A stretch of DNA of 64,000 nucleotides from Salvelinus alpinus (Eukaryota > Chordata > Actinopteri > Salmoniformes > Salmonidae), in contig NC_092120.1 in the NCBI RefSeq assembly GCF_045679555.1, positions 3,907,079 through 3,971,078 on the forward strand. The letters are read 5' to 3'. Below, in pieces: positions 5,028-64,000 of this stretch (the stretch's first letter is position 1; each line of letters starts with the position of its first letter). The notes below the pieces were generated by a model that saw nothing but the letters and a program-made list of their open reading frames with translations, was not told the DNA's origin and did no database searches. The translations under genes and the position numbers were made by a program.

Positions 5028-5564
5028 GTCATTATAAGTCTTGACTCAAATCGCACTTCAAATCCAAAATACAACAGTATAATCTGTCCATGATGATTAT
5101 ATATTCTTTACAGTGTAAGGATAAATGTTCTTACCCTAAGTCTTACTACAAATCCAAAGTACAACACACAAACATACAGTACATACACAGATTATACATT
5201 GACAATCCTGCCTACTTAATCTCTGAAGTATTTGATTCCCTAAACTACTAGCCATAATATTTTGCAGAACTTCTTCCTGAGATATGTCTTGACATAAAAG
5301 CTGATTGTGTCTGTGGTGCAAATGAAATAGGGTAACTTGACTTGTCCCCAAGTGTTTCTTTGTGTATCTTGTACATTGTTCTGCATGGATAGTTTAATGT
5401 AAAGTGGGACTTTGCTGCATGCCATGTGGTCTCCTGTTGGCTCAACAGAGCCTGTCTAACTGGGTTAGGTAGATGTCCCCTGCAGTTGCATCCTCACACA
5501 TCCGCACACACAACAAACCTGAGAAACCAGAGCCCCACCTGGCTCAGCTTTATATGCTCACCGA
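5028..5564. other. Unique sequence, no feature seen
   Basis: Non-repetitive sequence between the minisatellite and the first LINE. I see no exon of a known gene, no RNA gene and no clear repeat. Confidence 0.5.
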
Positions 5565-9935: not shown

Positions 9936-18674
<8,739 letters not shown>

Positions 18675-23500: not shown

Positions 23501-26500
23501 TATGCCATTCCCAACCACTGACACTACACCTGGAGAAGAAGAGAGGAGAGAAGGAACCAACAGCACTATGCCATTCCCAACCACTGACACTACACCTGGA
23601 GAAGAAGAGAGGAGAGAAGAAACCAACAGCACTATGCCATTCCCAACCACTGACACTACACCTGGAGAAGAAGAGAGGAGAGAAGAAACCAACAGCACTA
23701 TGCCATTCCCAACCACTGACACTACACCTGGAGAAGAAGAGAGGAGAGAAGAAACCAACAGCACTATGCCATTCCCAACCACTGACACTACACCTGGAGA
23801 AGAAGAGAGGAGAGAAGAAACCAACAGCACTATGCCATTCCCAACCACTGACACTACACCTGGAGAAGAAGAGAGGAGAGAAGAAACCAACAGCACTATG
23901 CCATTCCCAACCACTGACACTACACCTGGAGAAGAAGAGAGGAGAGAAGAAACCAACAGCACTATGCCATTCCCAACCACTGACACTACACCTGGAGAAG
24001 AAGAGAGGAGAGAAGAAACCAACAGCACTATGCCATTCCCAACCACTGACACTACACCTGGAGAAGAAGGGAGGAGAGAAGGAAGACAGGAGCGGGGAGA
24101 TAGGAGGTTTGAAGCGACGGGGAGAGAGAGAAAGATAGAAGTATAGAGACAGAGGTGATGATGAAGAGGAAGAGAGGAAGCAGAGAAAGAAGAGACAACA
24201 GAGTGATAAAGAGAGAGAGATGGATAGATGTGGCAGAAACAGGGGAGAGGAGGAGGGAGAGAAAGATAGCTTTAGTTTGCTATATGATATACTCTCTTAT
24301 GGTACAGCAGTATTATCACAGTGGGTAGTCATTAAACACAGACTGAAAATATTGTTTCAGCATTATTGGCATGTGGACCAGCTCACTGTCCGCTTTGGGG
24401 TATAACAAGGGTCAGTACACCGTCAATCATTTAATATTTCAACCGCTGCTACCTTCCTGACCCCCCCAACCCACTATCCGGCTTTGAAAGCATCGGGGAA
24501 CCAATCCAAAGTGAATAAATGTTATAGCTGAATCGACATGATTGCTTGCTGGCTGGCTGGCCAGTGGGGGGCAGGGTGCTGTTCATAGCCTCATTTGATT
24601 TGTTGTGTAGGTAATTATTGGGAGCAACAGGTATGGAATGTTCCATGCTGTGATTCCTCATGTGTATCCTCTCCTCTCTTCTTTCCTCTCTCCTTTCCTC
24701 TCACCTTTCCTCTCTCCTTTCCTCACTGCTCTCTCATTTCCTCTCCATGTATCCTCTATCTTTTCATCTCTCCTCTGTGCTCTCTCTATGTATCCTCTCT
24801 CCTTTATACTCTCCTCTGTCCTCTCTCCTCTCTGTGTGTCCTCTCCTCTCTGGTGTGACCCTGGGGTTGCTATGCTAATACACTTTGTATTCAGTCTGTA
24901 TACACAGCTCCATAATGGAAACAGTCACAGAGAGTTAGATCACTGACATACTTGATCAGAAAGGTTGATCCTGATGGATGACAGATCTGTGTTGAAACAA
25001 AGTAAACCCATTCAGCCATCTGTGTGGGCTCTGGATTCCATTCAGCCATCTGTGTGGGCTCTGGATTCCATTCAGCCATCTGTGTGGGCTCTGGATTCCA
25101 TTCAGCCATCTGTGTGGGCTCTGGATTCCATTCAGCCATCTGTGTGGGCTCTGGATTCCATTCAGTCATCTGTGTGGGCTCTGGATTCCATTCAGTCATC
25201 TGTGTGGGCTCTGGATTCCATTCAGTCATCTGTGTGGGCTCTGGATTCCATTCAGCCATCTGTGTGGGCTCTGGATTCCATTCAGTCATCTGTGTGGGAT
25301 CTGGATTCCATTCAGCCATCTGTGTGGGCTCTGGATTCCATTCAGTCATCTGTGTGGGCTCTGGATTCCATTCAGTCATCTGTGTGGGCTCTGGATTCCA
25401 TTCAGTCATCTGTGTGGGCTCTGGATTCCATTCAGCCATCTGTGTGGGCTCTGGATTCCATTCAGTCATCTGTGTGGGCTCTGGATTCCATTCAGCCATC
25501 TGTGTGGGCTCTGGATTCCATTCAGCCATCTGTGTGGGCTCTGGATTCCATTCAGTCATCTGTGTGGGCTCTGGATTCCATTCAGCCATCTGTGTGGGCT
25601 CTGGATTCCATTCAGTCATCTGTGTGGGCTCTGGATTCCATTCAGCCATCTGTGTGGGCTCTGGATTCCATTCAGTCATCTGTGTGGGCTCTGGATTCCA
25701 TTTAGTCATCTGTGTGGGCTCTGGATTCCATTCAGTCATCTGTGTGGGCTCTGGATTCCATTCAGCCATCTGTGTGGGCTCTGGATTCCATTCAGTCATC
25801 TGTGTGGGCTCTGGATTCCATTCAGTCATCTGTGTGGGCTCTGGATTCCATTCAGTCATCTGTGTGGGCTCTGGATTCCATTCAGTCATCTGTGTGGGCT
25901 CTGGATTCCATTCAGTCATCTGTGTGGGCTCTGGATTCCATTCGGTCATCTGTGTGGGCTCTAGATTCCATTCAGTCATCTGTGTGGGCTCTGGATTCCA
26001 TTCAGTCATCTGTGTGGGCTCTGGATTCCATTCAGTCATCTGTGTGGGCTCTGGATTCCATTCAGTCATCTGTGTGGGCTCTGGATTCCATTCAGTCATC
26101 TGTGTGGGCTCTGGATTCCATTCAGCCATCTGTGTGGGCTCTGGATTCCGATGATTAAGATGTGAAAAGCTGTTGCCCAGCTTATATATCGAAAACCTTT
26201 CAGTCCTCTGGGATCAAATTTGATTTTGTTCATATTGTTTTTAAGTCTTGATTTATCTGAACAGAATTTCACCCCTATAAATATACCTTAAACCAAGCCT
26301 AATACTTCTACACTGTACAGATTATGTTATTTTACCAGTGATTATTCTACCAGTGAGTTACTCAGGAGGAATACCAACCAAACTCTGATGTTAACTGACA
26401 CCAACACTGAATCTCTCATCTGTGATGAGGAGAGATGCCTAATTTCAAATCAACCAACAACCCTGAGCCTCTATGCCCAAGTGTCTAGAGACTTATTTGA

Positions 26501-40011: not shown

Positions 40012-40658
40012 TGACCCTGGTGAAATGCCCTCTTTCCCCAACCCAGAACTGACCCTGGTGAAATGCCCTCTTTCCCCAACCCAGAACTGACCCTGGTGAA
40101 ATGCCCTCTTTCCCCATCCCAGAACTGACCCTGGTGAAATGCCCTCTTTCCCCAACCCAGAACTGACCCTGGTGAAATGCCCTCTTTCCCCATCCCAGAA
40201 CTGACCCTGGTGAAATGCCCTCTTTCCCCATCCCAGAACTGACCCTGGTGAAATGCCCTCTTTCCCCATCCCAGAACTGACCCTGGTGAAATGCCCTCTT
40301 TCCCCATCCCAGAACTGACCCTGGTGAAATGCCCTCTTTCCCCATCCCAGAACTGACCCTGGTGAAATGCCCTCTTTCCCCATCCCAGAACTGACCCTGG
40401 TGAAATGCCCTCTTTCCCCATCCCAGAACTGACCCTGGTGAAATGCCCTCTTTCCCCAACCCAGAACTGACCCTGGTGAAATGCCCTCTTTCCCCAACCC
40501 AGAACTGACCCTGGTGAAATGCCCTCTTTCCCCAACCCAGAACTGACCCTGGTGAAATGCCCTCTTTCCCCAACCCAGAACTGACCCTGGTGAAATGCCC
40601 TCTTTCCCCAACCCAGAACTGACCCTGGTGAACTCCCCTCTTTCCCCAACCCAGAACT
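40012..40658. repeat. 38-bp minisatellite, about 17 copies
   Basis: Unit GACCCTGGTGAAATGCCCTC followed by TTTCCCCAACCCAGAACT. A central block of units has CCCATCCC instead of CCCAACCC. Although 38 is not a multiple of three, all three minus frames are stop-free, so long overlapping frames appear. Non-coding. Confidence 0.97.
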
Positions 40659-40659
40659 G

Positions 40660-43737: not shown

Positions 43738-44187
43738 TCCTGTGTGTTTATAGCCTCGCTGTACCCTGTGTGTTTATAGCCTCGCTCTACCCTGTGTGTT
43801 TATAGCCTCGCTCTACCTTGTGTGTTTATAGCCTCGCTCTACCCTGTGTGTTTATAGCCTCGCTCTACCCTGTGTGTTTATAGCCTCGCTCTACCCTGTG
43901 TGTTTATAGCCTCGCTCTACCCTGTGTGTTTATAGCCTCGCTCTACCTTGTGTGTTTATAGCCTCGCTCTACCCTGTGTGTTTATAGCCTCGCTCTACCC
44001 TGTGTTTATAGCCTCACTCTACCTTGTGTGTTTATAGCCTCGCTCTACCCTGTGTGTTTATAGCCTCGCTCTACCCTGTGTGTTTATAGCCTCGCTCTAC
44101 CCTGTGTGTTTATAGCCTCACTCTACCTTGTGTGTTTATAGCCTCGCTCTACCCTGTGTGTTTATAGCCTCGCTCTACCCTGTGTGT
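43738..44187. repeat. 26-bp minisatellite, about 17 copies
   Basis: Unit TGTGTGTTTATAGCCTCGCT plus CTACCC, with a few C/T and G/A variants and one shortened unit near 44000. It lies upstream of the CNP promoter. Confidence 0.95.
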
Positions 44188-46309: not shown

Positions 46310-49300
46310 TCAGTGTCGGAGACGGGCACGTCGAGAGGTGCGGGCGATGGGTGTGGTCACCTTAGGTGTCTCACTCTCTGCCATGACAGCGTCTGATTGG
46401 GTAAAAAACAAATATCAGTAACATTGATGTGTTAATTTGACAAGCAACAACTAACCAGATTTGTTCCCAACAGTAATTGCTATGAAATTGCAAAGATTAA
46501 AACAAATGTCACTTCATTCACTGAGCTCAAATGTACTTCATGACACCATCCTGGGAAGCCAGCACCAACAATCTACTGAGAGCATGAATCAGTTTATATG
46601 CTTTCCATCACTTTAACTGAAAAGCACTGCTAACACTCAGACTAAAACAGATTGTACTGTTAGAAAGTGCAGATACCTTCTTCCTCCTCCTCCTCTTCGT
46701 CACTGCTGAAGGTGATAACAGCTTTCTTGGAGGACTTCCGGGTTGGTTTAGGGGTCACAAAGCTATCGTCATGGCGACTGGCTACAGAGGGCTTGGCTTG
46801 ACCTTTGAGGGGAGAGAAAGAAAATCATGGAACATTAGCTAAAGTCTATGTAATTGGCAAAAATAAATACATTCAGGAGGGAAAAATTCACTGTCTACCA
46901 GAAAAGGCACTACACTTGTGTGCGCGCTCACCTCTCTTGGGCCTGCCACCCCGTCCCTTGTTGGGTAGTGGCGTGTGAGTGGTGTTCTGGCTGGGCCCAG
47001 CTCCCTCGGGCTGGTTCTTCTCCATCTCAGAGCTCTCTACGTTCTCCAGCCCCCGGGTGTGGACCGCCGTCAGACGCTTCTCAAACTCCTCCACCTGGAC
47101 CTGGGGACAGAGACAGAAGAATCAGAATAAGACCTGGCATGTGTATTCATTTAGAGCACAGTCAAGAAATCAGTCTGGATAGTCAGAAAGAGTCTGGATA
47201 GTCCGTAGTCGCTCACTTGTCCCAAGTTTATTGTTATGTATATCTGAATTGGGGGGGGGGGGGGGGGCTAAGGGCTTTCTTATGTGGTTTGAACAGCTGT
47301 GAAAAACTATTCTGCCAGTCAATACATACAACCACTATCATCTGTACCTTGAGCTGTGGCTTGGCTCCTCGGCGTAGCTTAGCAGTGATGGAGAGGAGAG
47401 GCTGGTAGACTCCTGTCTCAGTCAGCTTGTCACTGTAACACTCCCAACACTCCTGGAGCCTCTTCAGCCCTCGCTCACACATAGACAGCAGAGACAGAGA
47501 CACGGCCAGGTCACACCACTGACGCTCAGTCCTGGAGAGAGATTTGGGGGGCGGGGGGGGGGTGGAGTGAGGAAATTTGATTATTCACTTACAACAAATA
47601 GTCTTTCAAGAACAGAGGAAATCTGACCTGACATTTGAAGAAATCATTCTCCGCCCATGGTCTCACTGATTCACTGTCTGTCTGTGGCTTAATCTAAAAT
47701 GCCCTTTCTATGGAGGTCTGTGCTTTGAATGATGAGCCAGAAAGAGGGAAAGAGTTGGCCCCGAGTTCGCTGAACAGACAACCCTCGAATACTCCTGAGA
47801 CAGAGGAACTAATGCCAGCCGTTATGACACGGAATGGGAGAACAGAAGTTAGGAGAAAGGAAGGAAATGCAAGGGGAAGACGGGCTGCTCACTTTGCGGT
47901 CCTGAAGCGCTGACACAGCTTCTCCACCAGAGACTCAGTCTGTCTCTCCTTAGTGATGTAGGAAAACAGCTGCCTGAAAACAGACAGAGGGAAACATTAA
48001 AATAAGGCATTAAAACACCACTCACATATTAGCATCCCATTTCCATGTTATTCAGCACAACAGGTTTCAAACCAGAGTCACAATGTGACTCCAGCATGCC
48101 AAGTCATCCAGTGTGTAAAGCCTGGGAGAGAACACAGTGAGCGACAGACACACAGGTTAAGTAGCCCTCTATACTGATACACACTATACTGATCACAACA
48201 CAATATACACAGTGAGAGCAGAAGAGGCACACAGCTCAGTGTGGACACCACTCACTTCATGATGGTGTGGAAGTCTTCCTCGTTCATGGCTCTCTCTGGG
48301 TCGGACAGTCTGCTGATGATGTCTGGGAGAAGGTTATAGATAGCATTGTCCTGGGAGGAGAAGAGACGCCACTGTCTGGTTTAGAACATTGGAGGATCCA
48401 TTACCCTCAGTCTATGTAAAAAGGTCCCCAATACACTAACTCAGATTTACAGTGCATTCGGAAAGTATTCAGACCCGTTGACTTTTTCAGCATTTTGTTA
48501 CGTTCCAGCCTTATTCTAAATTTGATTAAATTGTTTTTCTCCTTCTAATCTACACACAATACCCCAAAACGACAAAGCAAAAACAGGTTTAGAAATGTTT
48601 GTTAATTTATTTAAAATAAAAACCTGAAATATGACATTTACATAAGTATTCAGACCCTTTACTCATTACTTTGTTGAAACACCTTTGGCACCGATTACAG
48701 CCTCGAGTCTTCTTGGGTATTTACATTTACATTTAAGTCATTTAGCAGACGCTCTTATCCAGAGCGACTTACAAATTGGGGTATGACGCTACAAGCTTGG
48801 CACAGCTGTATTTGGGCAGTTTCTCCCATTCTTCTCTGCAGATCCTCTCAAGCTCTGTCAGGTTGAATGGGGAGCGTTGCTGCACAGCTATTTTCAGGTC
48901 TCTCCAGAGATGTTCGATTGGGTTCAAGTCCAGTCCTTCAACCTCATGACTTGGTGTTTGCTCTGACAACTGTGGGACCTTATGTAGACGGGTGTGTGTC
49001 TTTCCAAATCATGTCCAATTAATTGAATTTACCACAGGTGGACTGCAATCAAGTTGTAGAAACATCAAGGCTGATCAATGGAAACAGGACACACCTGAGC
49101 TCAATTTCAAGTCTCATAGCAAAGGGTCTGAATACTTATGTAAATAAGGTGTCTAAAAAACTGTCTTTGCTTTTGGAGTATGGTGTGTAGATTGGATAAA
49201 AAAAAATCAAATAAGGCTGTTGTTAACTCGAAATGACACAACGACAAGGTTCCAGTTTAACAAAGTTGACTCTACTATATGAACACACTTACAAGGTAGC

Positions 49301-52300
49301 CATTACACTCAAGGCTAGGTCCAACCACCAACTTCTCACCTGCGCAGGCGCACTCTTGACCTGGTGATAGCCCCGTAATAACAGAAGTATAGGGATACTT
49401 AAAACATGAACAGCTGTAACATAACAAAATGTCGAAAAAGTCAAGGGTCTGAATACGTCACGAAGGCACTGTATATCCCAATTAAATAGAAATGCCTGGA
49501 AATAATACTGTGTACCTTGGAGGCGAGCTCGTTGAAGAAGTTGAGTGCGAGGCTGGCGATGTGTGTCTGGGGGTCGATGAGCAGCACAGCCACCTCACTG
49601 ACCTGACCTTTGACCTTGAGCACGTCCTTCAGCACTAGCTGGGTCAGAACAGTCACCGCAGTCTGCCTCACCGCCGGGTTCTCGTCACTCAGCCTAGGCA
49701 GGGGAGACAGGGACATGTTATATGATGAAACAATATTATTTAAATGGCATGCAGGTTTCTGCTCTAATCAGCATCAGCTGGGATACCATGTAAGAGACTC
49801 TGACCAATCAATGACATTAAGCAATCGACTACCTGGGTGAAAATACGACCAGCCATACATTGGACCTGGAGGCTTCGATGCCAATACCCCTGACTGGCAT
49901 TGACCATAATCCTCTGCTATGCAGTCATTTCAGATGTACGTGTGGGAGGTACAGAGGGCCTCTACCCTGAGGGAGCTCTGACACAAAATGGCTGCAGGGT
50001 CTCACCGGGCTCCATTGTTCTAAACAGGGGAATGAATTAACCGCATACACTGGGAAGGGATTTGAGGCCAGGTGAAAAAAAAACGTGCAACTTCTCCTCC
50101 AGCCGTGGATTAGGACGTTTTGCAGAGGAACCAGACTCGCCGGGTGTGTGGTCTGCTATACAGTAGATGGTCATAAGCCACAGCTTCAGTATAATTAACT
50201 ATGCCTGTAAAACAGTGCATTACCATTAGAGTAAAAATCATGTTTAATACCCTTATCAGTCCTCTCCCAGGGAGGGCTTTCTGTCTTTGAGGAGACCCAA
50301 CACAATGGAGGTGTGTGGGAGACAATTACTGACTGCTACAAAACACTTACCATGAGGAAAAACCTAAGGATTAGTGTTCATAGTGAAAAGCCTGGAAAAC
50401 ACTATTCACCTGAAACACATAAAATGTAAGAATAACCAAGCATCATAATTAGCACTATACAAAGACAAAAACAGAACGAGTGGAATGAAGAGATAACGAA
50501 TTGTAATTAAACTTAAATGGGGGAGGGGTATGGCTTCAGTGCATCTCAATGTGGGAAGAACAACCAGCAATCATCATTAAGCTTTCTTCAATTAAGTCCC
50601 CATCCTTCCTACGGAGTATAACCTATGGTATCACCTGAAAGTATCCCCCTTCTCCCTCCAATCTACTCATTGTATAATTATACCACCAACAAGTAGTTCT
50701 GGACACAATCAGAAACTTCAAGTTGTTCTAGGCCTTTCTGCTCAAATTTTATTTGAGAGTGCACGAGCGAGCAGACCATGGTTGACAGTCCAGAAGAGCG
50801 GTTGGAGTTCTGAAGAGCACAGTACACTGTACTGTCGCGCAATAGCAACATCAGAGGTCAGAATGATAGTGGAGGACATGACAGAATTTTACAATGCTTA
50901 CTATTGTTTTTTTCTGTTCTGAACATATGAAAATAAGTTTTCCGATCAACTGGTTCAGTAGACTGCAGCAGCAGCAGGACTGGAGCGTGTGAAGGAACAA
51001 CATTAGCAGACAACCAGACATGGAACGAGCTTGTAGCCCTCAGCCATCCTCATCTAATGGCCATGTTTACCTAAATTAAAAAAGCCACACAATCCATAGT
51101 ACTCACAGCTGGGTAATTAAATAAAGATCAGCTTGTTTGCTACTTCCATATTCTAAACTATAAACAAGTTATATTAGCTGCTTGGCTAATATTTAGTCAC
51201 TGAATGAAAATGGCTTGTGGGGGTGCACACCTGGTACAGAGGCTCTGGGTCCAGGTGTTTGGATTACCTGGTACAGAGGCTCTGGGTCCAGGTGTTTGGA
51301 TTACCTGGTAGAGTCTCTGGGTCCAGGTGTTTGGATTACCTGGTACAGAGTCTCTGGGTCCAGGTGTTTGGATTACCTGGTACAGAGTCTCTGGGTCCAG
51401 GTGTTTGGGTTACATGGTACAGAGTCTCTGGGTCCAGGTGTTTGGATTACCTGGTACAGAGGTTCTGAGCCCAGGTGTTTGGATTACCTGGTATAGAGGT
51501 TCTGGGTCCAGGGCTCCAGGATGTTGGGGAAGCGGACGGTGAGGTCTCCCAGGCCGATGATGGCGTTGGCCCTGACGACGGGCAGAGAGGAACGCTCCAG
51601 CACCGTGAACAGGAGACGGATGTGCTCCTCACACACTGACGGACTGATAGAGGAGAGGGGACAGAGGTTGACAGAGACACACACCACAGCCATACCACAC
51701 AAAGGAAAATTATAGAAAAACAATGTAGTCCGAGGTGTAGTCTGACCTGATCATCATGTACTGTGAGAGGGCCAGGCAGGCAGCGGTGGTAAGCTGGGGG
51801 TGGCAGTATCTCCCTGGGGAACTACACACCCTCACCAGCAGGGGCAGGAACGAGCACAACAGGTTCTCCTCTGGGGGGAGGAGAGATGTGGTTGTCAAAG
51901 CAATTAAATCACATCAGGAAAAATGACATAGTTTTGAAAAAGTTATGCCTTTACCAGCCAGCAGCTCAGTCTCACAGATCTTCCTGATCAGCTCAGCCTC
52001 GGTGTCCTCAGCAGAAGCACCCATCAACCCAAGTTCTTCCTCCACAGAACTGTCATTGGCCGCTTGCTGTGGGAAACATGGATCATGACAGTTGATTAAG
52101 AACTCCTTGTTCATGTCTGGTCTACTGGAAAGTTACAGCGATTTAATCTAAACGAGTAATTAGGAAGAAGATAGCTGTTGTTCTTAGACCCCTGATGGGA
52201 AGAATCATCAAGACCTGTCAATCACCGTGTTGCGTGACCAAAATTAAACTCATCAAGTGTTTCCCAGGGAGAAAAGTCACTGATTGGCAAGACAATCCTA

Positions 52301-55300
52301 CTCACATGGCCTCTTTACTAATCAACATCCTGTTCTGATAACATTTGGTTTATGAAATGCAATGAGAATCAATTTTACACGTATAGTAAAAGCTTCTTAA
52401 ACACAGAACATGTGTATAAACCCAGCAGTCTCATTACCACTAGGTTTGTAGTATCCTAATCTCACGATTGACCATTATGTGAATTATTGCATCATTGGTT
52501 TGGATTGCCTAAAAATACTGGACATCATAAACATTGTGTTCCCATTCCATGTCCAGACTGACCTTGGCCTTACGGGAGGGTACCTTCGCCTTCTCCTCCC
52601 TCTCTTCTGTCTCTCCTCTCCTCCTCCGCAGCTCAGAGCTGACGCTGCGCTCCAGGTGGGACACCTGCCAGAACGCCACGCAGCCACACAGAGACAGCAG
52701 CTGGGCCAGGGACACGCAGCTCACCGCAGGGACTAGAGGGACAGGGACACACATCACTATAACACCATACTGACCATAAAGTACCTATACAAGATACTGG
52801 TCATCATAATACACTACCACACTGGCAGAGTTTCAACAACTAGGCACAGTGAAAGAGCACCAGACAACTGGAGAATGTCATCTATTCATACTACAGAAGT
52901 TTTACCAGAGTGCACCAACTTTTTAAATAAATATCCACTCTCTCGCACCTTGTTCTCCCTGCTCCTCAGGGTCCTGAGATGCACCCGGCAACTGGCTGAC
53001 ATCCTTGTTTGCTAACATCTCCCCGCCCTCCGCGATCTGGTCCAATAGCAGGCGAGAGCAGCGCTGGAGGAGGCGGGAGCAGAGCTGGTCTGGGGACTCG
53101 GACAGGAAGTACAGCAGACGTACAGCCTGCTCCATGAAGCTCTGCCAGTGAGGGTCCGCCATCACCACACCTGGGGCGGGACCAGACAGACAGTTAGTTA
53201 AGAGAAGGTCAGGGGCAGAGACACTACATTCTCCCACTCAAGAGATAGTGTGTGTACACACCTTCAGCGATGGCCTGTGTGAGGCAGGTAAAGAGCTGGT
53301 TGTCCTGAGGCAGTCTGAATGGAGCTCCTTTGCATTGCTGGGGGGTACAATTCAACTCAATCACTTTACACACTTCAAACCTCTATAGGGCTGACCCCAT
53401 TTAGTCACCTGGTAGATTGTTTAGTTCAGGCTGTTGGTCGACCGAGATTTCTTTTGTCAAGCAGTTTCAAAAATATTATTTTCATGGTGCACAAGACTCC
53501 TGTCTGATTCCCACCTGTCTCAGTGGACTAATCCATTGCAGATGCCACGGGGATGGCACAGTTCATCACTCTAAGACATGAGCTACTGAACTTGTAAGCG
53601 GTTATATTTTGTAAGAAAATGGTGCAATGGTAATAAATATATTTTATAACAAATGCAGTTTCTCAAGCGATGGATAGCGGGAGAATGCGCTGTCCGCGGT
53701 TCTGAAACGTAATCTTCAGTGCGCCGTTGAATTGGCGCCTTCCCCTTTATGTTGCTATGTGCATAATAGCAAAGTTAACCAGCATATTGTTGTTGTGAAC
53801 AGAGTAAGGAGACGAGAAAATAGCCCTTGCCTTAATTGTCTAAGAAACTAGAGGAAACAAACTTAGATATATAATCCATAGCATAACTGTTAAATCGTGC
53901 CTGACTTTATAAATCAATTTCTACAGAAATAAAACGGATCCTGTTTGAGTGTTTAATAGCCTACTGATTCCGTGAGCACCAAGACTCTCACAACCACAGA
54001 ATGTCAGATAAAGCAACTTCACAAATGTGTATGTTTTTAATCTTTGCTGTAATAAATTTAGATTTTTGTTAGAACAGACTAAATTGTAAGTAATACCAGA
54101 GTTGTTTACACGGTTCCAAACAGGCAGAAAATATTGAAATCTAATAGGACTGGGCAGAGGCGCAGCCATGGTGGGTGGGCATGGGTCCACACACTACGGA
54201 GCCAGGCCCAGCCAATCAGAATACATTTCCCCACACAATTAAAAACAGAAATACTGCTCAGCATACAGCCTCCCCCTCAGACAATCTCACAGGTAAAGAA
54301 GCTGGATGTGGAGGTCCTGGGCTGGCGTGATAACATGTGGTCTGCAGGTGTGAGGCCGGTTGGATGTACTGCCAAATTCTCTAAAACAATGTTGGAGGCG
54401 GCTTATGGTAGAGAAATTAACATTCAAAACAGCTCTGGTGGACATTTCTGCATTCAGCATGCCAATTGCGCGCTTCCTCAAAATAAGCTTTTTTTTTTTT
54501 TGCATATGGGAAATTTCTGGGATCTTTTATTTCAGCTCATGAAAAATGGGACCAACACTTTACATGTTGTTTATATTTTTGTTCAGTCTAGTTCATTTTA
54601 TTCAAACACATTGGGTGTGGGGGTGTGTAATATATATATATATATATAAAGACACTACTTTAAATTTCAACCAATCGATTGGTTGAAAGAACATGCGACT
54701 TTTGGTCGACCAAGATAGTTTTTGTTGTCTGGGACAGCCCTAGACCTCTAGAAAGTCTAGGCCGGCAAACTACATGAGGGGTCTTACCCTGACATGGTCA
54801 GTGATGTTACAGATGGTGATAACAGAGTCTCTGGCCAGTAGGAAGTCTTCAGTCAACTTCTCTCCCAGAGCCACAGAGCACAGAGTGTCCAGGTTACTGA
54901 GGACCACCTCCCTCTCCGCTCTACACAGAGAAATACACAATTACATTAGGCTACACACTGAATAATCTAAAATGCCACATCTAATCTGATACAAGAACAC
55001 GCATACAAACATGCTATTACACACAGCAACTTTAGTGTGTGGTGCACAAATTATGTTCTTAGCAGTAAATGTACATACTGCCATGTCTACACACAACAGA
55101 GTAGTAGGCTACGGCATTTAAATTATGCCCAGGCGCCAGATTAATTAATCATCTCATCGGTGCTCGGCCCTCCGCAGAACACACACAGTCCCAGTCTATG
55201 GGGGATTGTGTGTGGGAGGGAGGGTTAGAGGAAGTGAGGACAGGATTAAACAGGTTATGGAAAGAGATGAGGCCCGGTATTGTCCATTACAGTGTGGGTG

Positions 55301-58300
55301 GACTGCAGATAGTCCCCCTCTCCCCCCCACCGGCAGTGGCTGTCTTTGAAGGAGACCGAATGCCTGTTTAAAACGCTTGTTCTTCATTGAAAACCCTGGC
55401 GGTGAGCCCAGATGTGTGTGGTCGTGACTTAGACTCAATTGAGAGAAGTCTGTGTACTCTGCTGTGCTCCTATTCAGAGACTATAAAGGCGCCAGCATGC
55501 TTCGTTTCGGCTAGCCAAATGAGTATGCTTGCATACTCTCTTAAAAGACATTCACTTGGACAGAAAAAAAAGAGTCAATAGTACTGTTTGTCCATTTTGA
55601 GACAGCGTAGCCAGTACACTTCCTCAAAATAGTCTGAATTAATCTAAGATAAAAATGAATGACCGATTTTCTGAGTTCACGTTTATGCTGAGGATATCCT
55701 TTTTTTGTTTTTGCATCTAAGATGTTTTCGGGAGTATTTCTCAATGAAAAAACTTGCATGAAAACAAGTCGTCTCTCGCTGAATGACAGACTATTGAAGA
55801 ATCTCTACTGTTGACCAATCATCGACAAAGGGGAGTAGACTTGTTGCCCCCGAACTGAAAAAACCTCAGTGAAGTCTAAAATAAACATGTCACAAGATGT
55901 AATAATATATGCACGTCTTCTGAAGTGCTACGGATAGGAAGCATGCAGGCGCCTTAATGAGGTTTAGTGGACAAATTAACCAACGCCAGACTGTTGAGAA
56001 AGCCAAGCGCCAAAGGTAGGAGTTGCCAATAGGTGCAGACCTAGGAACAGTTTACCATACGTCAATAATGGAACATTGTCATTGGGAGGTTAACTGCAAA
56101 ACTGGACTTGGACCAGAGTCTCATATTAAACAAAGATCAAGAGATTAAGATTAATGTATTAGTCAAATGGCCACAAGGTCCAACTGAAATTTTACTTCCA
56201 CTTTTAACCCAACCCCTCCGAAAGACACATACAGGTGTAGAAGCCCTCAGATTACCAAAGAAGAGCGCTCATGGACAACTGAATATTGAGGAGAGGTGGG
56301 GTTCTCCCTGCCTCACACATACAGACACAGACAAACACACATCAGTCACACTGTCAGCACCCTCCCACTATTCTCTACCGTGTTTCTTTAACGGGAGAAA
56401 CATGTGGGTGGGGACAAGTCACTGTAGGCCGGCCCTTACAGCAGAGCAGCCAATCTCCGCTACACTGCCAAGATTACCGGCCAATCAAGACAAGGTAGAA
56501 CCCAACTCTCTCATTCAGTTGGCTCGCATTCGCCTTGGTCTCATCATTGGGCAAGAAGTCAAAGGGGACTTAAAGACAGAGGTGTGAAGTTAGAACTTGT
56601 GTTTGTGTGAGGGCCTTACCGTGCAGCCATTCCCAGAAGCAGTACTGCTGCTCGTCTGTGCAGGCTGGAGGTCTCTCGTTTGCCAGTGAACCTCTCCCAC
56701 AGAACCTGCACTACCGTGGACTGCAGGCTGCTGCCACCACCAAAAAACTCCTGGACCTGGGACGACATGAGAGAAGGGGTTGGAACAGATTAGACGAGAG
56801 AGAGAACAGGGTTAATAATTGAAGACAGGATGGCTAGAGAGTAATCAGTGAAGAGTAAAGGCTAACAATCACTGGGTAGTATTGATGACAGGATGGCTAG
56901 AGAGTAATCAGTAAAGAGTAAAGGCTAACAATCACTGGGTAGTATTGATGACAGGATGGCTAGAGAGTAATCAGTAAAGAGTAAAGGCTAACAATCACTG
57001 GGTAGTATTGATGACAGGATTGATAATAAAAGATGGTAATAAGAGAAACTCACTATCTCCTCCAGACACTGGATTGTCCCCAGAGAGGCATCCACCATCA
57101 GTTCAGACAGACTGTCCACTAGAGTCTGAGCTTTAGCCCTGAGAGAGGGAGAGAGAGTCAGGCACCAGAGCATAGCCCATTGGAGGTTGCTGAAGTTCTA
57201 CCTTGAGTCTGCATCTCTTTCAGCAGCAATGTGCTGGTGGGAGCAAGATTAACAAATTCACAGCAGAAAATGTAATAAATGGTGTGTTCACACAGGCAGC
57301 CCAATTCTGATATATATATTTTGGCACCAATTGGTCTTTTGACCAATCACACATTTTTTCACATCATTTCTGAGCTGATGCGATCGGTCAAAAGACCAAT
57401 TAGTGAAAACAAGATCAGAATGGGATTGCATGTCTATAAACGCAGCCGGAGAGTTGAAACCGCTTGGGGGGAATGGCTGAGGTGCTGGAATGAAGATTGC
57501 AGGTTCCCATTATAGCTATTTCAGCAGACAAGACAGAGTTCCCTTTACTCTCAATATCATTATAATGTCACTAGCACCGCTTCGCAATTTCACATGGGAA
57601 GAAATTACCATTTCAAAAGTAACTTAACCATCTGAAATTGGTAGTGGGATCGAGGGACCTGAGGGGGTCGATAGAAAGTGCCTGTGGCAACAGTTTGAAG
57701 GTGTGACAGCGTACCTGGTGTTATCTCCCTGGGGGTTGAGGTAGAGGCGTCTGTAGGCCTGCACCACAGCATCTTTAATGGCAGCGTCAGTAGACCAGAC
57801 CAGAGGCAGCATCTTCCTCACACCAGTCAGAGAGTTCGCCACACTGAACTCGCATACTGTCACACAGAACTGCACCGCCTCCTGGACCACTGAGACACAT
57901 TCATTCCTCAATACCCCACATATTACATTGTCTCAGAATACATGCATGGAGTCATTGGTGTAAGATGTTGACTGTGCAGGTGATGAAGGTATGGTAATGC
58001 AGGTGTAGGTAAGATGAGGTGTGTTTGTACCTGAGGTAGTCTTCCAGTAGAGCATGGTGTTGATGACAGCGATGGCTCTCTCCACCTGCAGGGCAAAGCT
58101 CTCAGTGTCTCTCAGATACTGCAACAGCATCTCCTGTTTCTTCAGCTCGCTCTCCTCCACCCCTTCCTTCCCTCCATCCCCTGCTCCCTCCTTCTGGGGG
58201 GTGGAAGGCAGGTCCTCTCTGATCTCAGAGGTGTCCTGGTCAGGACCTGGGGAGGAACAGAGAGGTCAGATTATAAAAATGTTCTCCTGAGAGCAGATGT

Positions 58301-61300
58301 GAACATCTTAACTCCTGCCAGCGCGAGCACACATTTGTTCCAGTCCACATGATTTAACTAAATAGTGGTCTAAAATGAGGACCAGTGTTAGTTCTCAGGT
58401 GTTAGAGCTAGGCTTGGGTGATTCACCAGTAGAAAACCTTATCACCCACTCCATCAGTAATGCTGTCATCTAGAACTACACCTACACTGCTGAAAGCAAA
58501 CAGCACTAGATTGACCTTAATTACATTTTGATTGGTTATATCACACTCTTATTCTAGCACTGATTTCACCACTTGTTTTTGAAGGCTTGCTACTGAATCA
58601 TTTGTTTAATCCATATGAAAGTGTTTTGATTGAGTGAATATGACTCTTTTAGTAGAGTGCTGGTTAGTTCTGAATAGTTCACTTAATAGACTTGTATTAT
58701 GAGGTTCTTTCAAAATTCACTTATTGTAAGTCGGTTCTAGATAAGAGCATTCACTAAATGACCAAACATTTTCAGAATGCTAACTTTCCCCCCTCCCTTT
58801 CTATCTCCTACACTTAACCAATACACGTGCTTCGTGATGTGATTGACGGACAGAGTTCAGTACCTTTGAAGAGCAGGGCCAGTGTGTCCAAGAGAGTCTC
58901 GGCGGTGAGAGTGGTCAGAGACGAGAACATCTCAGACTCTGGGAACAGGCTGTGGGCTCGCACACACAGACGCACTGCATTCCTGATACACAAACAGCAA
59001 TCAGTTATTATGTGATGACAGTGGAGTTCAGCTTGGAATGCCAATTGTTATCTCAATTCTATAAACAATTGATCCTGATTTTTTACAAATCTAGTCACCT
59101 GGGCAGTGTTTCAAAATGTATTTGATTTTGCCTATAGGATCGGATTAAATGGATAGAAATAGAATGAATAGAACGAGCCCCCACCATTTCATTTCTATGC
59201 AATTAGTCCTATCCAATAGGCGAAATCCAGATAGATGACCTTTGAAAAACTGGGCCCGGTATTTAGATATTGTTTCACTTTACCGGTATTTGTTGACGCG
59301 GAGGAACTGGGCGATCTGTACGGCGGTGGCCCTGTCGTCCTCCTCTCCAGCCTCGTCCTCCTCCCTCTCCTGCTGTTCCCCCTCTCCCTCACTGGTGGGC
59401 TCCAGCTCGGCTCTGACGGTGAAGAGCAGCTCAGGCTCCATAGCGGCCCACAGTTCGGAGGCCTTGATCACTGCCACTGGACGGAGAGCCCAAAGGAATA
59501 TGGTTAAATGGGAAATCAACACTAAAATCATTTTGCATCAGGTTTCTCGAAAGCCCAATATCTTGAAAACTTGACCGCTGACATGCAAAACATTTTTGGG
59601 ACTGTATCAGGGGATTAATGAAAAAATTAAATAAAAATAACTTGAGTGGAGTTTCCCTTTAATGATAAATATAGTTTGGACAAGAGGCAGAAGATGAGGT
59701 AGAGGAGTTCAGAATGAATGGATTCTATTTCTATTGTTACAAAGCCCTCAGATTAACAAAGAGCGCTCATGACCAACTGAATATTGAGGAGAGGTGGGGT
59801 TCTCCCTGCCTCACACATACAGACACAGACAGACAAACACACGTCAGTCACACTGTCACCACCCTCCCACTATTCTCTACCGTGTTTCTTTAACGGGAGA
59901 AAAATGTGGGTGGGGACAAGTCACTGTAGGCCGGCCCTTACAGCAGAGCAGCCAATCTCTGCTACACTGCCAAGATTACCGGCCAATCGAGACGAGAGAT
60001 CCCAACCCTCTTTCAGTTGGCTTACATTCACCTTGGTCTCATCACTGGGCATTATATAAAAGATAAATATAAGGTGGTGTGTATAATTTACCAGGTGCGT
60101 TTTCCTGCAGTCTCTCTCTAAGCTCGCGGAGTTTATCCGTCTCCTTCTCCAGGGGTTTCTTCAGGTCAGCACTGCTCAACTACAGATGAAAAACAATTGT
60201 AAGACACTGTTGTGTGTGTGCTTCACAGTAGTGGTTGTTCGAGTGTGTGCGCACACACCTTGCAGCTGTAGGGGTTGTGTGCTATGAAGGCAGCCAGTAG
60301 CTGGATGGCACTCTTGACCACATTGATGGATTTGTCCATCAGCCTTCCCACTGCCAACCCCATCACTTCACTGTACCTGTTCAGGGGCAGAGCCTGGGGG
60401 GGGGGGGGGTAGAAATCACACAGAGGACATTAGAGGAACGCTCAGTAATCGCAGCGGAAGTGATTCTCTCCTTGTCTCCTTTCCTTCAAAAACGGAATAG
60501 TCAGGTTTTTGCTGTAAATAAAATAATTCAAATAATTTCTGCGGGCTTGAGAGATTGACAATCAAATGGGGATTTGATGTTGAGGGACAATTCACTTCAA
60601 ACTCAAACCAGCACAGGGCATTAGTGACTGAATGTTGAGGCCACTGCATAGCTGTCACTAAGATTTCTGAATGCCCTCAGATTACCAAAGAAAAATGTCA
60701 TAGCCATAGCAAAGGCTATCAACGAAGAGTTGTGTCTCCTTGCCAACTGAAACATATTCTCACACTCACAAAGACTTTCAGCAGCCTCCGTCCTGCCTTC
60801 TCCCATGTCTCTGGGATGGGCAGAGGATGAGGAGGACTGCTAGTTTACTGTAGGTGGGCCCTTACAGCAGAGCAGCCAATCTTCACCACACTGCCAAGAT
60901 TACCCACCAATCAGCAGGAAGGAGAACAATCTCTCAGCATGATTGGCTCATATTTGCCATGATCTCATCACTGGGCATTAGTGAATACATAATACTGCAG
61001 TTTCATAACAGTGCAAGTAGCATCCGGAATTGCTTCATACATCAACATAGTTGTTTGGGATACCCTTTTAGAGATGTAAGCACACAAACTCGCACCTTGC
61101 TGTTGACGATGCGTGTGTAGACCTGCAGCACTCGGGCCCTGACGTAGGAGTGTGTGTCATGGAGGTGCTCCTGCAGTGTGTCCATGAAGCGGTCCCTGTC
61201 AGCTCTGCCAGACTCATCCAGTGCATCTCCACTCAGGACCCTGACCAGAACCTCTCCCAACACTTCACACACTGCCACACGCAAACTAGGGCTCTGCAGG

Positions 61301-64000
61301 CACAGAGAAGGTTTGAACATTCAGTAATGACAAGTTATTAAGGACATGATGATTGATCAAAGGAAGCACAATTTCAAGGGAAAAAGTAGTACTATAAAAC
61401 CTCATGTTGGGGATAATGGTGTATGAGTTACCTCACCCTCCAGGTGTGTGAGTAACACATTGATGTTGGGGATCATGGTGTATGAGATACCTCACCCTCC
61501 AGGTGTGTGAGTAACACATTGATGTTGGGGATAACGGTGTATGAGTTACCTCACCCTCCAGGTGTGTGAGTAACACATTGATGTTGGGGATCATGGTGTA
61601 TGAGTTACCTCACCCTCCAGGTGTGTGAGTAACACATTGATGTTGGGGATCATGGTGTATGAGATACCTCACCCTCCAGGTGTGTGAGAACACATTGATG
61701 TTGGGGATCATGGTGTATGAGTTACCTCGCCCTCCAGGTGTGTGAGTAACACACTGATGTTGGGGATCATGGTGTCGGGGACCAGGGTGCCCAGTTCAGA
61801 CAGGAAGCTGGAGAAGGCCTTGACCCCTGACCCCTCTCTGGCCAGCTCCTCACTAGACTTCTGACCGATCTCTCTGAGAGAGGAGGTTCAGTATAGAAAA
61901 CAGGGCATCAGAACAGAGACGTCATACACATTCCAACTCAAGTCGCTAATATGTTTCTCTCGGGACAAAAAGGACATGACACGAGGACCTTAAGACATTC
62001 TAGCGGAAAATGATACACCAATACAAAAAGTAATCTCTTCGACTGACCTCATGACCTCTCCTACAATAGCCTTGACTCCATACTCAGTGCTCCACACAGA
62101 CACAGCCTGGGCACACACTGACGACAGCTGATCAAAGTGCTGCAGCAGCTGGATCACCTTCACACTGGCACCTGTGGATGGAGAGAGCGAGAGAGGACAT
62201 CAGTACAATGCTTCACTTGAACACCATACCACTAATAAAAAGGCAGTGGCGCAGTAATATTCAAATGCATCAGTATAGGTTCTATGGAGCTGTCTAAAAA
62301 CAGTGATTTGGGGGTGTTGAGTTACTGACCCAGGAGGTGGTTGTATTTCTTGACCTGCACCCCCAGCAGGTGAATGATGGCGTCTCTGGTGGGCTTGTTC
62401 TTTACGTGGCTGATGGTTGGGTTCTCCAGGAGCTTATAGCAGCAGCATGTCACACAGCTGAGGACACACAAGAATACTGTAAGTCATATAGACTGCTGCT
62501 CATCGCTCACTATGTTCTCTACCTAGAGTGAAACCCCACAAACCCATGTTTCCTCCAGCCCCACACACTCATCCACAGTCTGGCCCTCTCACCTGATGAA
62601 CTCCTCCTCGACCAAAGAGAGGCTCCAGAGGGAGCGGATGTCCAGCTGAAGGAGCTGGGTTAGAGCCTGCAGCACCGTCTCCCTCTCAGAGTCCCACTGT
62701 AGTAAACCTTCTCCTGCAACCTTCCCCTTCTTACTGCCCTGAGGGAGTCAACAGAAAGAAAGTTCACTTCAAACTGTCAACACAGTACAGAACTAAGGAG
62801 GGTTGAGATTCTAGAATGACTATACTGTACTATCCTTATGCAGTTACAATATCCTTATGCAGTTAGAGTGACTCCTTGTTTATGGGGCCACTATGCATAG
62901 CAGTCACAAAGGTGGTTTTTGAATGCCCTCAGATTACCAAAGAAAAATGTCATAGCCATAGCAAAGGCTATCAACGAAGAGTTGTGTCTCCTTGCCAACT
63001 GAAACATATTCTCACACTCACACAAAGACTTTCAGCAGCCTCCGTCCTGCCTTCTCCCATGTCTCTGGGATGGGCAGAGGATGAGGAGGACTGCTAGTTT
63101 ACTGTAGGTGGGCCCTTACAGCAGAGCAGCCAATCTTCACCACTCTGCCAAGATTACCCACCAATCAGGAGGAAGGAGCACACACTCTCAGCCTGATTGG
63201 CTCATACTTGCCATGATCTCATCACTGGGCATTAGTGCATGTATTAAATTACTATAGCATGCTATGAGACTACATAATCAAATGTGACTGTTTGGAGAAT
63301 GACCTACCTTACTGGGTGCAGTGACGATACTCTGCCTGTAAGAGTCACTCTCCAGGATTTCTGTGAGCTTGCAGAGGAGGAACACACTCATTTTGACAGC
63401 ATTGAGCTGCTCCTTGCGGTCCGGTGCGGAGAGTGAGGCATTGAGGAGGAGGGAGGGCAGGGAGACGGACAGGCCACTCACCACTAATAGAGAACGCAAT
63501 GAAATACGGATGAGGACTTCGGCTGAATAGTGAGCACTAGCAGGCACAGGTATGCCATCATGTGTATAAGTTGAATGACATTTCAACACACACCATCACA
63601 AACACTGACCTTGTATGAGTAACTCCAGGGTGTCCTCTTTCACACTCATGTCCACTTTATGACAATGCCTGTGACATACAATAATATGCAACATGAGTCA
63701 ATTCGAGAAATTACATCATAGTTGTCGTAGGTTTAAGAAATAAAAATACAATAATTTGGGTAAATGTAGCTACTCACTGCAGCACAGTGTAACCCGTGTC
63801 GAAGTGTTCCAGGATGCACAATGGACCCTGGCTTCTCAGTGCAGCCTTGAAACCTGGAAAATATATAGAATAGTAAAGGAGTTGAGTTGCTTGGTCAGAT
63901 TTCAGGAGGACAATATTCTAACAATTATAATTCTGTAACAAACTCTGGGATATTTACTGTTGAGATGGGAGGGAAGTTGTTTAGGGGAGACGACATCCTG
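46310..64000 (-). CDS. Condensin complex subunit 1 (CAP-D2), 5' end off window
   Basis: 31 exons, 5' to 3': 64000..63958 (partial), 63853..63778, 63668..63610, 63483..63308, 62738..62593, 62457..62330, 62171..62048, 61873..61726, 61293..61096, 60393..60259, 60179..60092, 59476..59284, 58982..58864, 58246..58031, 57889..57715, 57138..57054, 56756..56620, 54920..54788, 53337..53262, 53170..52949, 52732..52563, 52066..51955, 51870..51747, 51643..51488, 49693..49516, 48350..48256, 47973..47893, 47531..47348, 47100..46932, 46802..46677, 46392..46310. All phases agree; 1,384 residues are visible, lacking only about 35 N-terminal ones. Landmarks shared with human NCAPD2: ILEHFDTGYTVL, LLQLDIRSLW, VGEVMREIGQKSSEEL, VDASLGTIQCLEEI, TEAELIRKICETELL, VKGQVSEVAVLLIDPQ, KERQTESLVEKLCQRFR, LRRGAKPQ, and an acidic/basic C-terminal tail. 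It is a HEAT-repeat subunit of condensin I that shapes mitotic chromosomes. Four introns host scaRNA genes. Confidence 0.97.
47252..47269. repeat. Poly-G run
   Basis: A run of about 18 G on the plus strand (poly-C in the transcript) in the intron between exons 28 and 29. Confidence 0.85.
48450..49471 (-). mobile_element. Tc1-like transposon, internally deleted, carrying a small insertion
   Basis: Flanked by TA; termini CAGTGCATTCGGAAAGTATT and, inverted, CAGTGCCTTCGTGACGTATT, the Sleeping Beauty-related salmonid family. Minus-strand remnant at 48969-48779 encodes LDLNPIEHLWRDLKIAVQQR and the transposase C-terminus; the upstream half is missing. At 48719-48778 a piece reading ACATTTACATTTAAGTCATT and TAGCAGACGCTCTTATCC, typical of a fish SINE/LINE tail, interrupts it. 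It lies in the intron between exons 25 and 26. Confidence 0.88.
49700..51220. other. ncapd2 intron between exons 24 and 25
   Basis: Apart from the minisatellite at its 5' end I recognise nothing here. Confidence 0.4.
51226..51505 (-). repeat. 37-bp minisatellite carrying the exon 24 donor, 8 copies
   Basis: On the transcribed strand the unit is the last 25 nt of exon 24 (CCTGGACCCAGAACCTCTAT plus ACCAG) and the first 12 nt of the intron (GTAATCCAAACA). Donor-equivalent positions are 51488 (real exon end), 51451, 51414, 51377, 51340, 51305, 51268 and 51231. One unit is 35 bp, and the one at 51414 lost the AG|GT context (ATGTAA). Confidence 0.93.
53385..54742. mobile_element. Non-autonomous hAT-type element, about 1.36 kb
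   Basis: Terminal inverted repeats TAGGGCTGACCCC and, inverted, TAGGGCTGTCCC. The flanking 8 bp read AACCTCTA on the left (53377-53384) and GACCTCTA on the right (54743-54750), a hAT-sized target duplication with one change. Subterminal repeats TTGGTCGACC occur near both ends (53433, 54703). No transposase remains. A Tc1 piece is embedded at 54285-54597. Located in the intron between exons 18 and 19. Confidence 0.78.
54285..54597 (+). mobile_element. Tc1-like fragment within the hAT element
   Basis: Matches the 3' part of a salmonid Tc1 family: AAGCTGGATGTGGAGGTCCT at the left, and CTGGGATCTTTTATTTCAGC, GGGACCAACACTTTACATGT, TATATTTTTGTTCAGT at the right end. Internal deletion; no transposase. 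Confidence 0.7.
54960..56238. other. ncapd2 intron between exons 17 and 18
   Basis: Unique sequence; apart from the scaRNA gene at its 5' end I see nothing recognisable. Confidence 0.4.
56243..56552 (-). ncRNA. U85/SCARNA10-type scaRNA, copy 1 (type A)
   Basis: A 310-nt composite C/D and H/ACA RNA, 67 nt downstream of the exon 17 donor. Closing stem GCCC/GGGC; box C AATGATGA; box D CTGA at 56250-56247. The element before box D, TCTTTGGTAAT, pairs with U5 snRNA nucleotides 42-51, and the fifth base from box D is the G opposite C45, so it should direct 2'-O-methylation there. The hairpin at 56427-56482 has a GGCCGG/CCGGCC base. Its pocket has AATCTT on the left (pairs with U5 48-53) and GTAAGG on the right (pairs with 40-45), placing U46 for pseudouridylation, and ACA follows. 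A stem-loop CCAACT/AGTTGG exposes GAATGAGAG with the UGAG CAB box for Cajal-body targeting. Box H is not clear. Confidence 0.92.
56821..57020. repeat. 63-bp tandem repeat, three copies
   Basis: Three nearly identical 63-bp units (starting GAAGACAGG/GATGACAGG at 56821, 56884, 56947), plus a partial fourth at 57010, in the intron between exons 16 and 17. No splice site is included. Confidence 0.95.
59744..60050 (-). ncRNA. U85/SCARNA10-type scaRNA, copy 2 (type A, probably decaying)
   Basis: 307 nt, 41 nt downstream of the exon 11 donor, closely related to copy 1. Closing stem GCCC/GGGC, box C GTGATGA, box D CTGA, and the H/ACA hairpin with GGCCGG/CCGGCC base and AATCTT/GTAAGG pocket are kept. 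Two functional sites differ. The methylation guide reads TCTTTGTTAAT, so the base opposite U5 C45 is U (plus-strand A at 59756) instead of G. The 5' loop reads GAAAGAG, without the UGAG CAB box. The pseudouridylation half could still work, but the methylation half should not. Retargeting cannot be excluded. Confidence 0.85.
60670..60979 (-). ncRNA. U85/SCARNA10-type scaRNA, copy 3 (type B)
   Basis: 310 nt, 116 nt downstream of the exon 9 donor. Closing stem AATGCCC/GGGCATT (7 bp), box C GTGATGA, box D CTGA, methylation guide TCTTTGGTAAT with G opposite U5 C45. The H/ACA hairpin keeps the same pocket as type A, but its base is GGTGGG/CCCACC, both strands changed together. ACA follows. The 5' stem-loop CAATC/GATTG exposes ATGCTGAGA with UGAG. 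The region between ACA and box D differs almost completely from type A, with its own stems. Confidence 0.92.
61405..61745 (-). repeat. 59-bp minisatellite carrying the exon 8 donor, 6 copies
   Basis: On the transcribed strand the unit is about the last 50 nt of exon 8 (ACACCATGATCCCCAACATC ... GGAGGGCGAG) plus about 9 nt of intron (GTAACTCAT). Donor-equivalent positions are 61726 (real exon end), 61668, 61609, 61550, 61491 and 61432; one unit is 58 bp. Confidence 0.95.
62922..63233 (-). ncRNA. U85/SCARNA10-type scaRNA, copy 4 (type B)
   Basis: 312 nt, 74 nt downstream of the exon 4 donor, very similar to copy 3. Closing stem AATGCCC/GGGCATT, box C GTGATGA, box D CTGA, guide TCTTTGGTAAT with G opposite U5 C45, hairpin base GGTGGG/CCCACC with AATCTT/GTAAGG pocket, and ACA. 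UGAG is present in the 5' loop (GGCTGAGA), although the stem below it is weaker than in copy 3. It looks functional. Confidence 0.91.

Follow-up and report, generated by a model that had tools for sequence, protein, structure and literature searches.

The ncapd2 gene of Salvelinus alpinus very likely carries four U85/SCARNA10 composite C/D-H/ACA guide RNAs in four of its introns, of which copies A, C and D would be dual guides and copy B a guide for pseudouridylation only; the two types to which they belong would each have been copied within the gene, with the positions of A and B filled by the time the locus was duplicated. The DNA analysed is one stretch of 64,000 nt, here called the window, and searches were extended to the genome from which it comes.

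U85 copies and their host introns

The whole window was scanned with cmscan, and the Rfam model RF01296 (snoU85, cut-off 41 bits) was matched by four segments, each of which spans model positions 1-329 of 329. Their positions and those of the host gene are as follows.

46310..64000, minus strand: host gene ncapd2 (condensin I subunit D2), from inside the ATG exon to the stop codon
54921..56619, minus strand: ncapd2 intron 18, host of copy A; acceptor taken from the sequence around TGTGTAG/AGCGG
56242..56552, minus strand: U85 copy A (type 1), in intron 18; 62.8 bits, E 1.5e-13
59477..60091, minus strand: ncapd2 intron 12 (615 nt), host of copy B
59743..60050, minus strand: U85 copy B (type 1), in intron 12; 58.1 bits, E 3.3e-12
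60394..61095, minus strand: ncapd2 intron 10 (702 nt), host of copy C
60672..60976, minus strand: U85 copy C (type 2), in intron 10; 69.8 bits, E 1.4e-15
62739..63307, minus strand: ncapd2 intron 5 (569 nt), host of copy D
62924..63230, minus strand: U85 copy D (type 2), in intron 5; 69.4 bits, E 1.9e-15

The original prediction of four U85/SCARNA10-type segments on the ncapd2 strand is confirmed by these matches, which are full-length in all four cases, exceed the cut-off of the covariance model at 58-70 bits, and fall where the segments had been placed; the sizes, given as 307-312 nt, are corrected to 305-311 nt, the Rfam consensus having 329 positions. The lowest score among the four is that of copy B. 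A profile built from A-D did not find a fifth copy in the window, its other rows being CA/GT repeats (E 0.029 and 4.5); likewise, no additional U85 copy was returned from the last 16 kb of the window by a scan at a lax threshold, and the 8 kb past the window end hold no further one. Matches to the nematode RNA ceN105 were also obtained for three of the four copies (23.5-27.9 bits, cut-off 55), and these we take to reflect the common H/ACA shape.

The host gene is ncapd2, as had been claimed: a stretch of 190 residues from it has condensin complex subunit 1 as its PDB match (best E 1.1e-18) and gives HEAT repeats in Pfam. Its start codon lies just past the window end, which the ATG exon (MSWDFF...) straddles, and the last frame of the gene is taken to be the C-terminus on the strength of what we assume of the human protein. 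Exon edges and splice sites were judged by eye from the sequence, without a transcript, and the intron numbers 5, 10, 12 and 18 assume a non-coding first exon ahead of the ATG exon, such as human NCAPD2 presumably has. All four copies lie in the sense orientation inside these introns, again as predicted. The distance from the splice donor to the RNA is 67 nt for A, 41 nt for B, 119 nt for C and 77 nt for D, so that the spacing of 41-116 nt first reported holds at its lower end and extends to 119 nt at its upper.

Several repeated elements were observed within ncapd2 itself. Two tandem arrays, with 37-nt units at 51229-51512 and 59-nt units at 61404-61775, each contain repeated copies of the 3′ terminus of an ncapd2 exon and of the splice donor that belongs to it, and the donor-like sites in the two arrays are consecutive (six CAG/GTAATCC and six GAG/GTA(A/T)CTC). 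Since neither 37 nor 59 is a multiple of three, splicing from a donor further along would change the reading frame, except where three units are added. On contig C4, which is described below, a counterpart to the 37-nt array matches it in part. In intron 16, an inverted-repeat element at 57304-57421 gives weak matches to microRNA models (MIR6135 and others), MIR6135 matching both strands at 45.6 and 37.3 bits with a cut-off of 99; the matched models are, as we take them, plant families, and the element is probably a small palindromic transposon.

Guide elements, U5 target and fold

C45 and U46 of U5 sit in the loop that holds the exons during splicing. As the original prediction had it, box C (UGAUGA), box D (CUGA) and a closing stem (GCCC/GGGC) are present in every copy. 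Ahead of the H box, the pocket arms AAUCUU and GUAAGG stand in all four window copies and in both copies found on C4, and in each of these GUAAGG starts 14 nt upstream of the H-box ACA. When the arms are paired by eye with U5, whose loop letters recur in the genome as described below, they meet positions 48-53 and 40-45, so that U46 and A47 stay unpaired; the proposed H/ACA pocket for U46 is thus upheld in letters and spacing for 4/4 copies, with its pairing read by eye.

The guide for C45 was said to be intact in three of the four copies, and this is what we find. The sequence ahead of box D forms ten pairs with U5 42-51 in A, C and D, one of them G-U, and in these copies the fifth base before box D is a G that lies opposite C45. 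Copy B has U rather than G at this position (-5), which is a mismatch to C45, and is without 3 nt that A has just upstream of the guide. By its sequence, copy B would be a U85 member by descent and pocket, and not a full functional equivalent. For the remaining boxes we used consensus forms as we assume them (ANANNA for the H box, followed by an ACA box, and ugAG for the CAB box). Type 1 has ACAGUG and ACA, the former differing from the assumed H box at its last position, and type 2 has ACAGUA and AAA; the hairpin loops, read by eye, contain GGAG, AGAG or GAAG in the 5′ hairpin and AAAG or AGAG in the 3′ hairpin.

The canonical U5 loop, CTTTCGCCTTTTACTAAAG, occurs at 61 places in the window's genome, and no exact match exists there for the 19-letter loop once position 45 is changed to A or G. 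Hence, no simple A/G-45 variant of U5 in this assembly suits the altered guide of B, and the idea of a U5 variant fitting it was set aside on these counts (0 exact versus 61 canonical), which doubly changed variants would escape. When 20 of the 47 listed U5 places were inspected, 19 had the canonical loop; the place L022 on contig C7 has G for A at position 49 and keeps C45, while U5 genes of the type found on contig C9 have C for U at position 52, one mismatch to the pocket. It was also observed that U5-like genes stand in tandem rows on contigs C9, C28, C307 and C456 of this genome (G000; loci L015-L021 and L023-L031 among them), and that C9 has a second type of U5 stem, with AAGCC before the loop and GACTT after it.

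By analogy with the family, the ncapd2 pre-mRNA would serve in cis as the source of copies A-D, whose ends would be set by trimming back to the closing stem of boxes C and D. The 5′ H/ACA hairpin of each copy would then present U46 of U5 for pseudouridylation, and in A, C and D the stretch ahead of box D would position C45 for 2′-O-methylation. Copy B, which retains the box C, box D and stem that the RNA should need for its production and upkeep, should no longer methylate C45, and would be a pseudouridylation-only U85.

Copies A and B are 94.4-95.1% identical and C and D 97.7%, and between these two types identity is about 65%; in many stems the letters differ between types and the pairing is retained. 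In the structure of the four-copy alignment, 96.8% of 284 cells are paired. Both sides have changed in 17 of its 71 pairs, a number reached by 6 of 500 shuffles, and double-changed cells number 31 as against 15.6 expected; when partners are slid along the alignment, only 1 to 4 double-changed pairs remain. Pair types are no more numerous than in the shuffles (447/500). For A and C folded jointly, the energy is -68.3 versus -40.6 ± 5.2 in shuffled columns, none of 300 being as low, and compensated pairs number 12 versus 8.4 ± 2.6 in refolded shuffles, 44 of 300 of which reach that count. We also took structures from single sequences, with pairs of probability 0.5 or more and 2000 shuffles, and counted the double-changed pairs that still pair in another copy: 13/19 from A to C (reached by 13/2000 shuffles), 10/15 from C to A (40/2000) and 12/19 from B to D (53/2000). 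From D to B, the 7/13 kept are reached by 462/2000 shuffles and are not above expectation, and pairs changed on one side only are retained no better than by chance in all four of these source/target tests. Energy and overall pairing are thus the main support for the U85 structure, to which covariation adds only moderately.

The second locus and the history of the copies

In the window's own genome (2.37 Gb), a search for the U85 family finds six places, namely A-D and two on contig C4 that score 46.4 and 52.3 bits; RF01296 matches all six, and these are recovered again when copy D is used in a DNA search (genome copy counts are lower bounds). Collinearity between C4 and the window extends past the window end, over about 60 kb in all (window coordinates 10141 to 71523), and pieces of 250 nt or more are 76-94% identical, repeat arrays apart, which is as expected of a duplicated chromosome segment. 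The locus within it is the following.

G000:C4:33503001-33533000 (loci L007-L009): decayed second ncapd2, carrying U85 copies Bo and Ao

In this second ncapd2, exons 6, 7, 9, 10 and 19 are without a match, exon 8 has none of its own (its weak alignment coincides with exon 16), exon 5 is truncated, and exons 15, 16 and 18 contain stops. Bo and Ao occupy introns that match those of B and A, with matching flanks; apart from U85 cross-matches, C4 has nothing that corresponds to the part of the window with C and D (about 60603-63449). Since U85 occupies introns 12 and 18 at either locus, the positions of A and B would have been filled first and the whole locus duplicated thereafter; the C4 locus has since lost its coding capacity, and still carries two U85 copies.

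Other elements were noted along the two stretches. Minisatellites lie in the window at 1-5028 (42 nt x 120), 23290-24081 (66 nt x 12), 25008-26149 (30 nt x 38), 40012-40659 (38 nt x 17) and 43739-44187 (26 nt x 17), and the 66-nt array is longer on C4 than in the window. A 1.6-kb segment at window 14321-15931 recurs at 97% identity in the C4 ncapd2 copy, as an insert (33514069-33515677) in the intron after exon 13; the two are probably one transposon in two places. At window 48732-48785 and 48772-49008, a UnaL2 LINE 3′ element (71 bits) lies beside a reading frame that resembles what we take to be the C-terminal end of a Tc1-type transposase.

The earlier proposal of a local family expansion stands as far as expansion within the gene is concerned, the types A/B and C/D each having presumably been copied inside ncapd2; a single burst does not fit, with two types each present twice and the A and B positions filled at the second locus as well. 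Could the copies have been produced by retroposition of the mature RNA? The similarity of A and B does end at the ends of the RNA, as retroposition would have it. For A/B, A/C, A/D, B/C and B/D no flank similarity above that of shuffles was found on either side. However, the 3′ flanks of C and D can be aligned with one another (score 34 versus a maximum of 24 in 200 shuffles, on the 3′ side only), so that at least that copying involved genomic DNA, and neither an A-rich tail nor a clear target-site repeat is seen by eye at the RNA ends. We consider retroposition improbable as the source of the copies. The RNA of C and D is better conserved than the adjoining 3′ flank, 7 of 305 positions having changed versus 4 of the first 33 that align in the flank (p 0.015, the 33 nt having been cut by eye).

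Both Bo and Ao carry U at -5, where A has G, and the 3-nt gap upstream of the guide is common to B and Bo. Because both C4 copies have U as well, the change in B at -5 probably predates the duplication of the locus. Either the U arose in the line of B and again, or by exchange, in Ao, or else it is ancestral to type 1 and A would have regained G.

The comparison of the four type-1 copies bears on how A and B came to be so similar. A and B are 94.4% identical, as compared with 91.7% for A and Ao and 92.2% for B and Bo, although the two positions predate the duplication; moreover, the shared changes form a mosaic, in that six sites located at the two ends of the RNA group A with Ao and B with Bo, and three in its middle group A with B. 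These observations suggest gene conversion between A and B. Nevertheless, the gap in divergence is not significant (17/304 versus 48/597, p 0.22), of two other sites, one puts A with Bo and the other is multiple, and the six-copy tree is weak (support 70 and 58), placing the root, when C and D serve to root it, on the Ao branch so that A and Ao form no clade. A faster change of the C4 copies would give the same picture, and private changes indeed number 24 on the C4 copies versus 8 on A and B (binomial p 0.007). That the closeness within each type (A/B 95%, C/D 98%) is due to conversion within the gene, rather than to recent copying, is thus a reading that we regard as quite possible and stop short of preferring.

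The same excess of private changes on C4, threefold and as would be seen under weak constraint, raises the question of whether only some copies work, with B and the C4 copies decaying and the lost C45 guide reflecting decay rather than a division of labour. Copy B, with the lowest score, no G at -5 and 3 nt missing near the guide, would fit such decay. However, B keeps both arms of the pocket with their 14-nt spacing, as well as boxes C and D and the stem that closes the RNA, and its U at -5 and 3-nt gap recur in Bo, which makes this state probably an old one. Between the loci, furthermore, the pocket hairpin has changed at 3/132 positions versus 45/465 in the rest of the RNA (p 0.0035), and so appears to be the best-kept large part of it, although it is not significantly below the near flanks (15/322, p 0.30). 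It should also be noted that the RNA outside the pocket hairpin changes faster than the near flanks (45/465 versus 15/322, p 0.009), and that conservation of the A/Ao and B/Bo RNAs as wholes is not above that of nearby intron sequence. Decay of B and the C4 copies therefore has points in its favour, and we lean against it while granting it a sizeable chance.

Related systems and the use of several copies

Human SCARNA10/U85 is a single gene, unlike the four copies found here, and U87 and U88 are composite guides. The human gene is like those of the window in its host, NCAPD2, and in its targets, U46 and C45 of U5, as given in a published passage (PMC3766210). In chicken, GGgCD80, of the U85/U89 type, is described as a U5 C45 guide with one isoform in NCAPD2 intron 3, unlike the four copies here, and the copying of snoRNAs within a host gene is presented in the same source as a main route (PMC2653536). 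That source also places U87 and U88, with U5 U40 and U4 A66 as targets, in introns 9 and 11 of chicken ATG16L1 (PMC2653536), an arrangement that resembles ours in having composite guides in two introns of one host and differs in the host and the targets.

The closest likeness is to the pikeperch, for which passages of a published study describe three U85 genes of 315-325 nt in Ncapd2 introns 5, 9 and 12, two of them 91% alike, with a third that shares about 62% identity with these (PMC11788885). Several U85 copies in different introns of one Ncapd2, with a similar split into two types, are thus common to both fishes, and the window differs in having four (introns 5, 10, 12 and 18) rather than three (PMC11788885). 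As an arrangement of this kind is already in print for another fish, the novelty implied by the original prediction is reduced. What is added here is a fourth copy, two U85 copies within the decayed counterpart of the host, and one old copy that on paper has a single guide left. The main text of the pikeperch study is without the terms scaRNA, Cajal and spliceosom, and its passages on these genes make no mention of guide sites or of a second locus (PMC11788885). In the titles and abstract openings that the literature searches brought up, neither a gene with four U85 copies nor a U85 without the C45 guide is reported; the six terms on U85 and U5 looked for in PMC8522698 are absent from it, and PMC3349704 mentions neither U85 nor NCAPD2.

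Why several copies are kept may be considered in terms of dosage, with the supply of U85 limiting the modification of U5, for example in fast-dividing embryos. There are several copies per transcript, and in pikeperch U85 is multi-copy too (PMC11788885). Brain RNA-seq in pikeperch is described as showing all three U85 RNAs, with the intron-5 copy rarest; within an animal the others exceed it 11.5- to 67-fold (Table 8), which speaks for unequal contributions, although the library was poly(A)-enriched and its counts are no clean measure of mature U85 (PMC11788885). The 61 U5 loop matches make a demand plausible and prove nothing. We regard the dosage explanation as rather doubtful.

For a division of functions, one concrete hint may be seen in the lost C45 guide of B, a loss common to both copies on C4. 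It is conceivable, if on the unlikely side, that the lineage of B had already given up C45 methylation when the locus was duplicated and has been retained as a U85 for pseudouridylation only, next to dual copies in the same transcript, with two U85 genes outliving the coding capacity of the second host. Whatever the reason for their retention, dual- and single-guide copies in one transcript would let the two U5 marks be separated by the removal of single introns, and the decayed second host is a natural test of the fate of intronic guide RNAs once their host stops coding.
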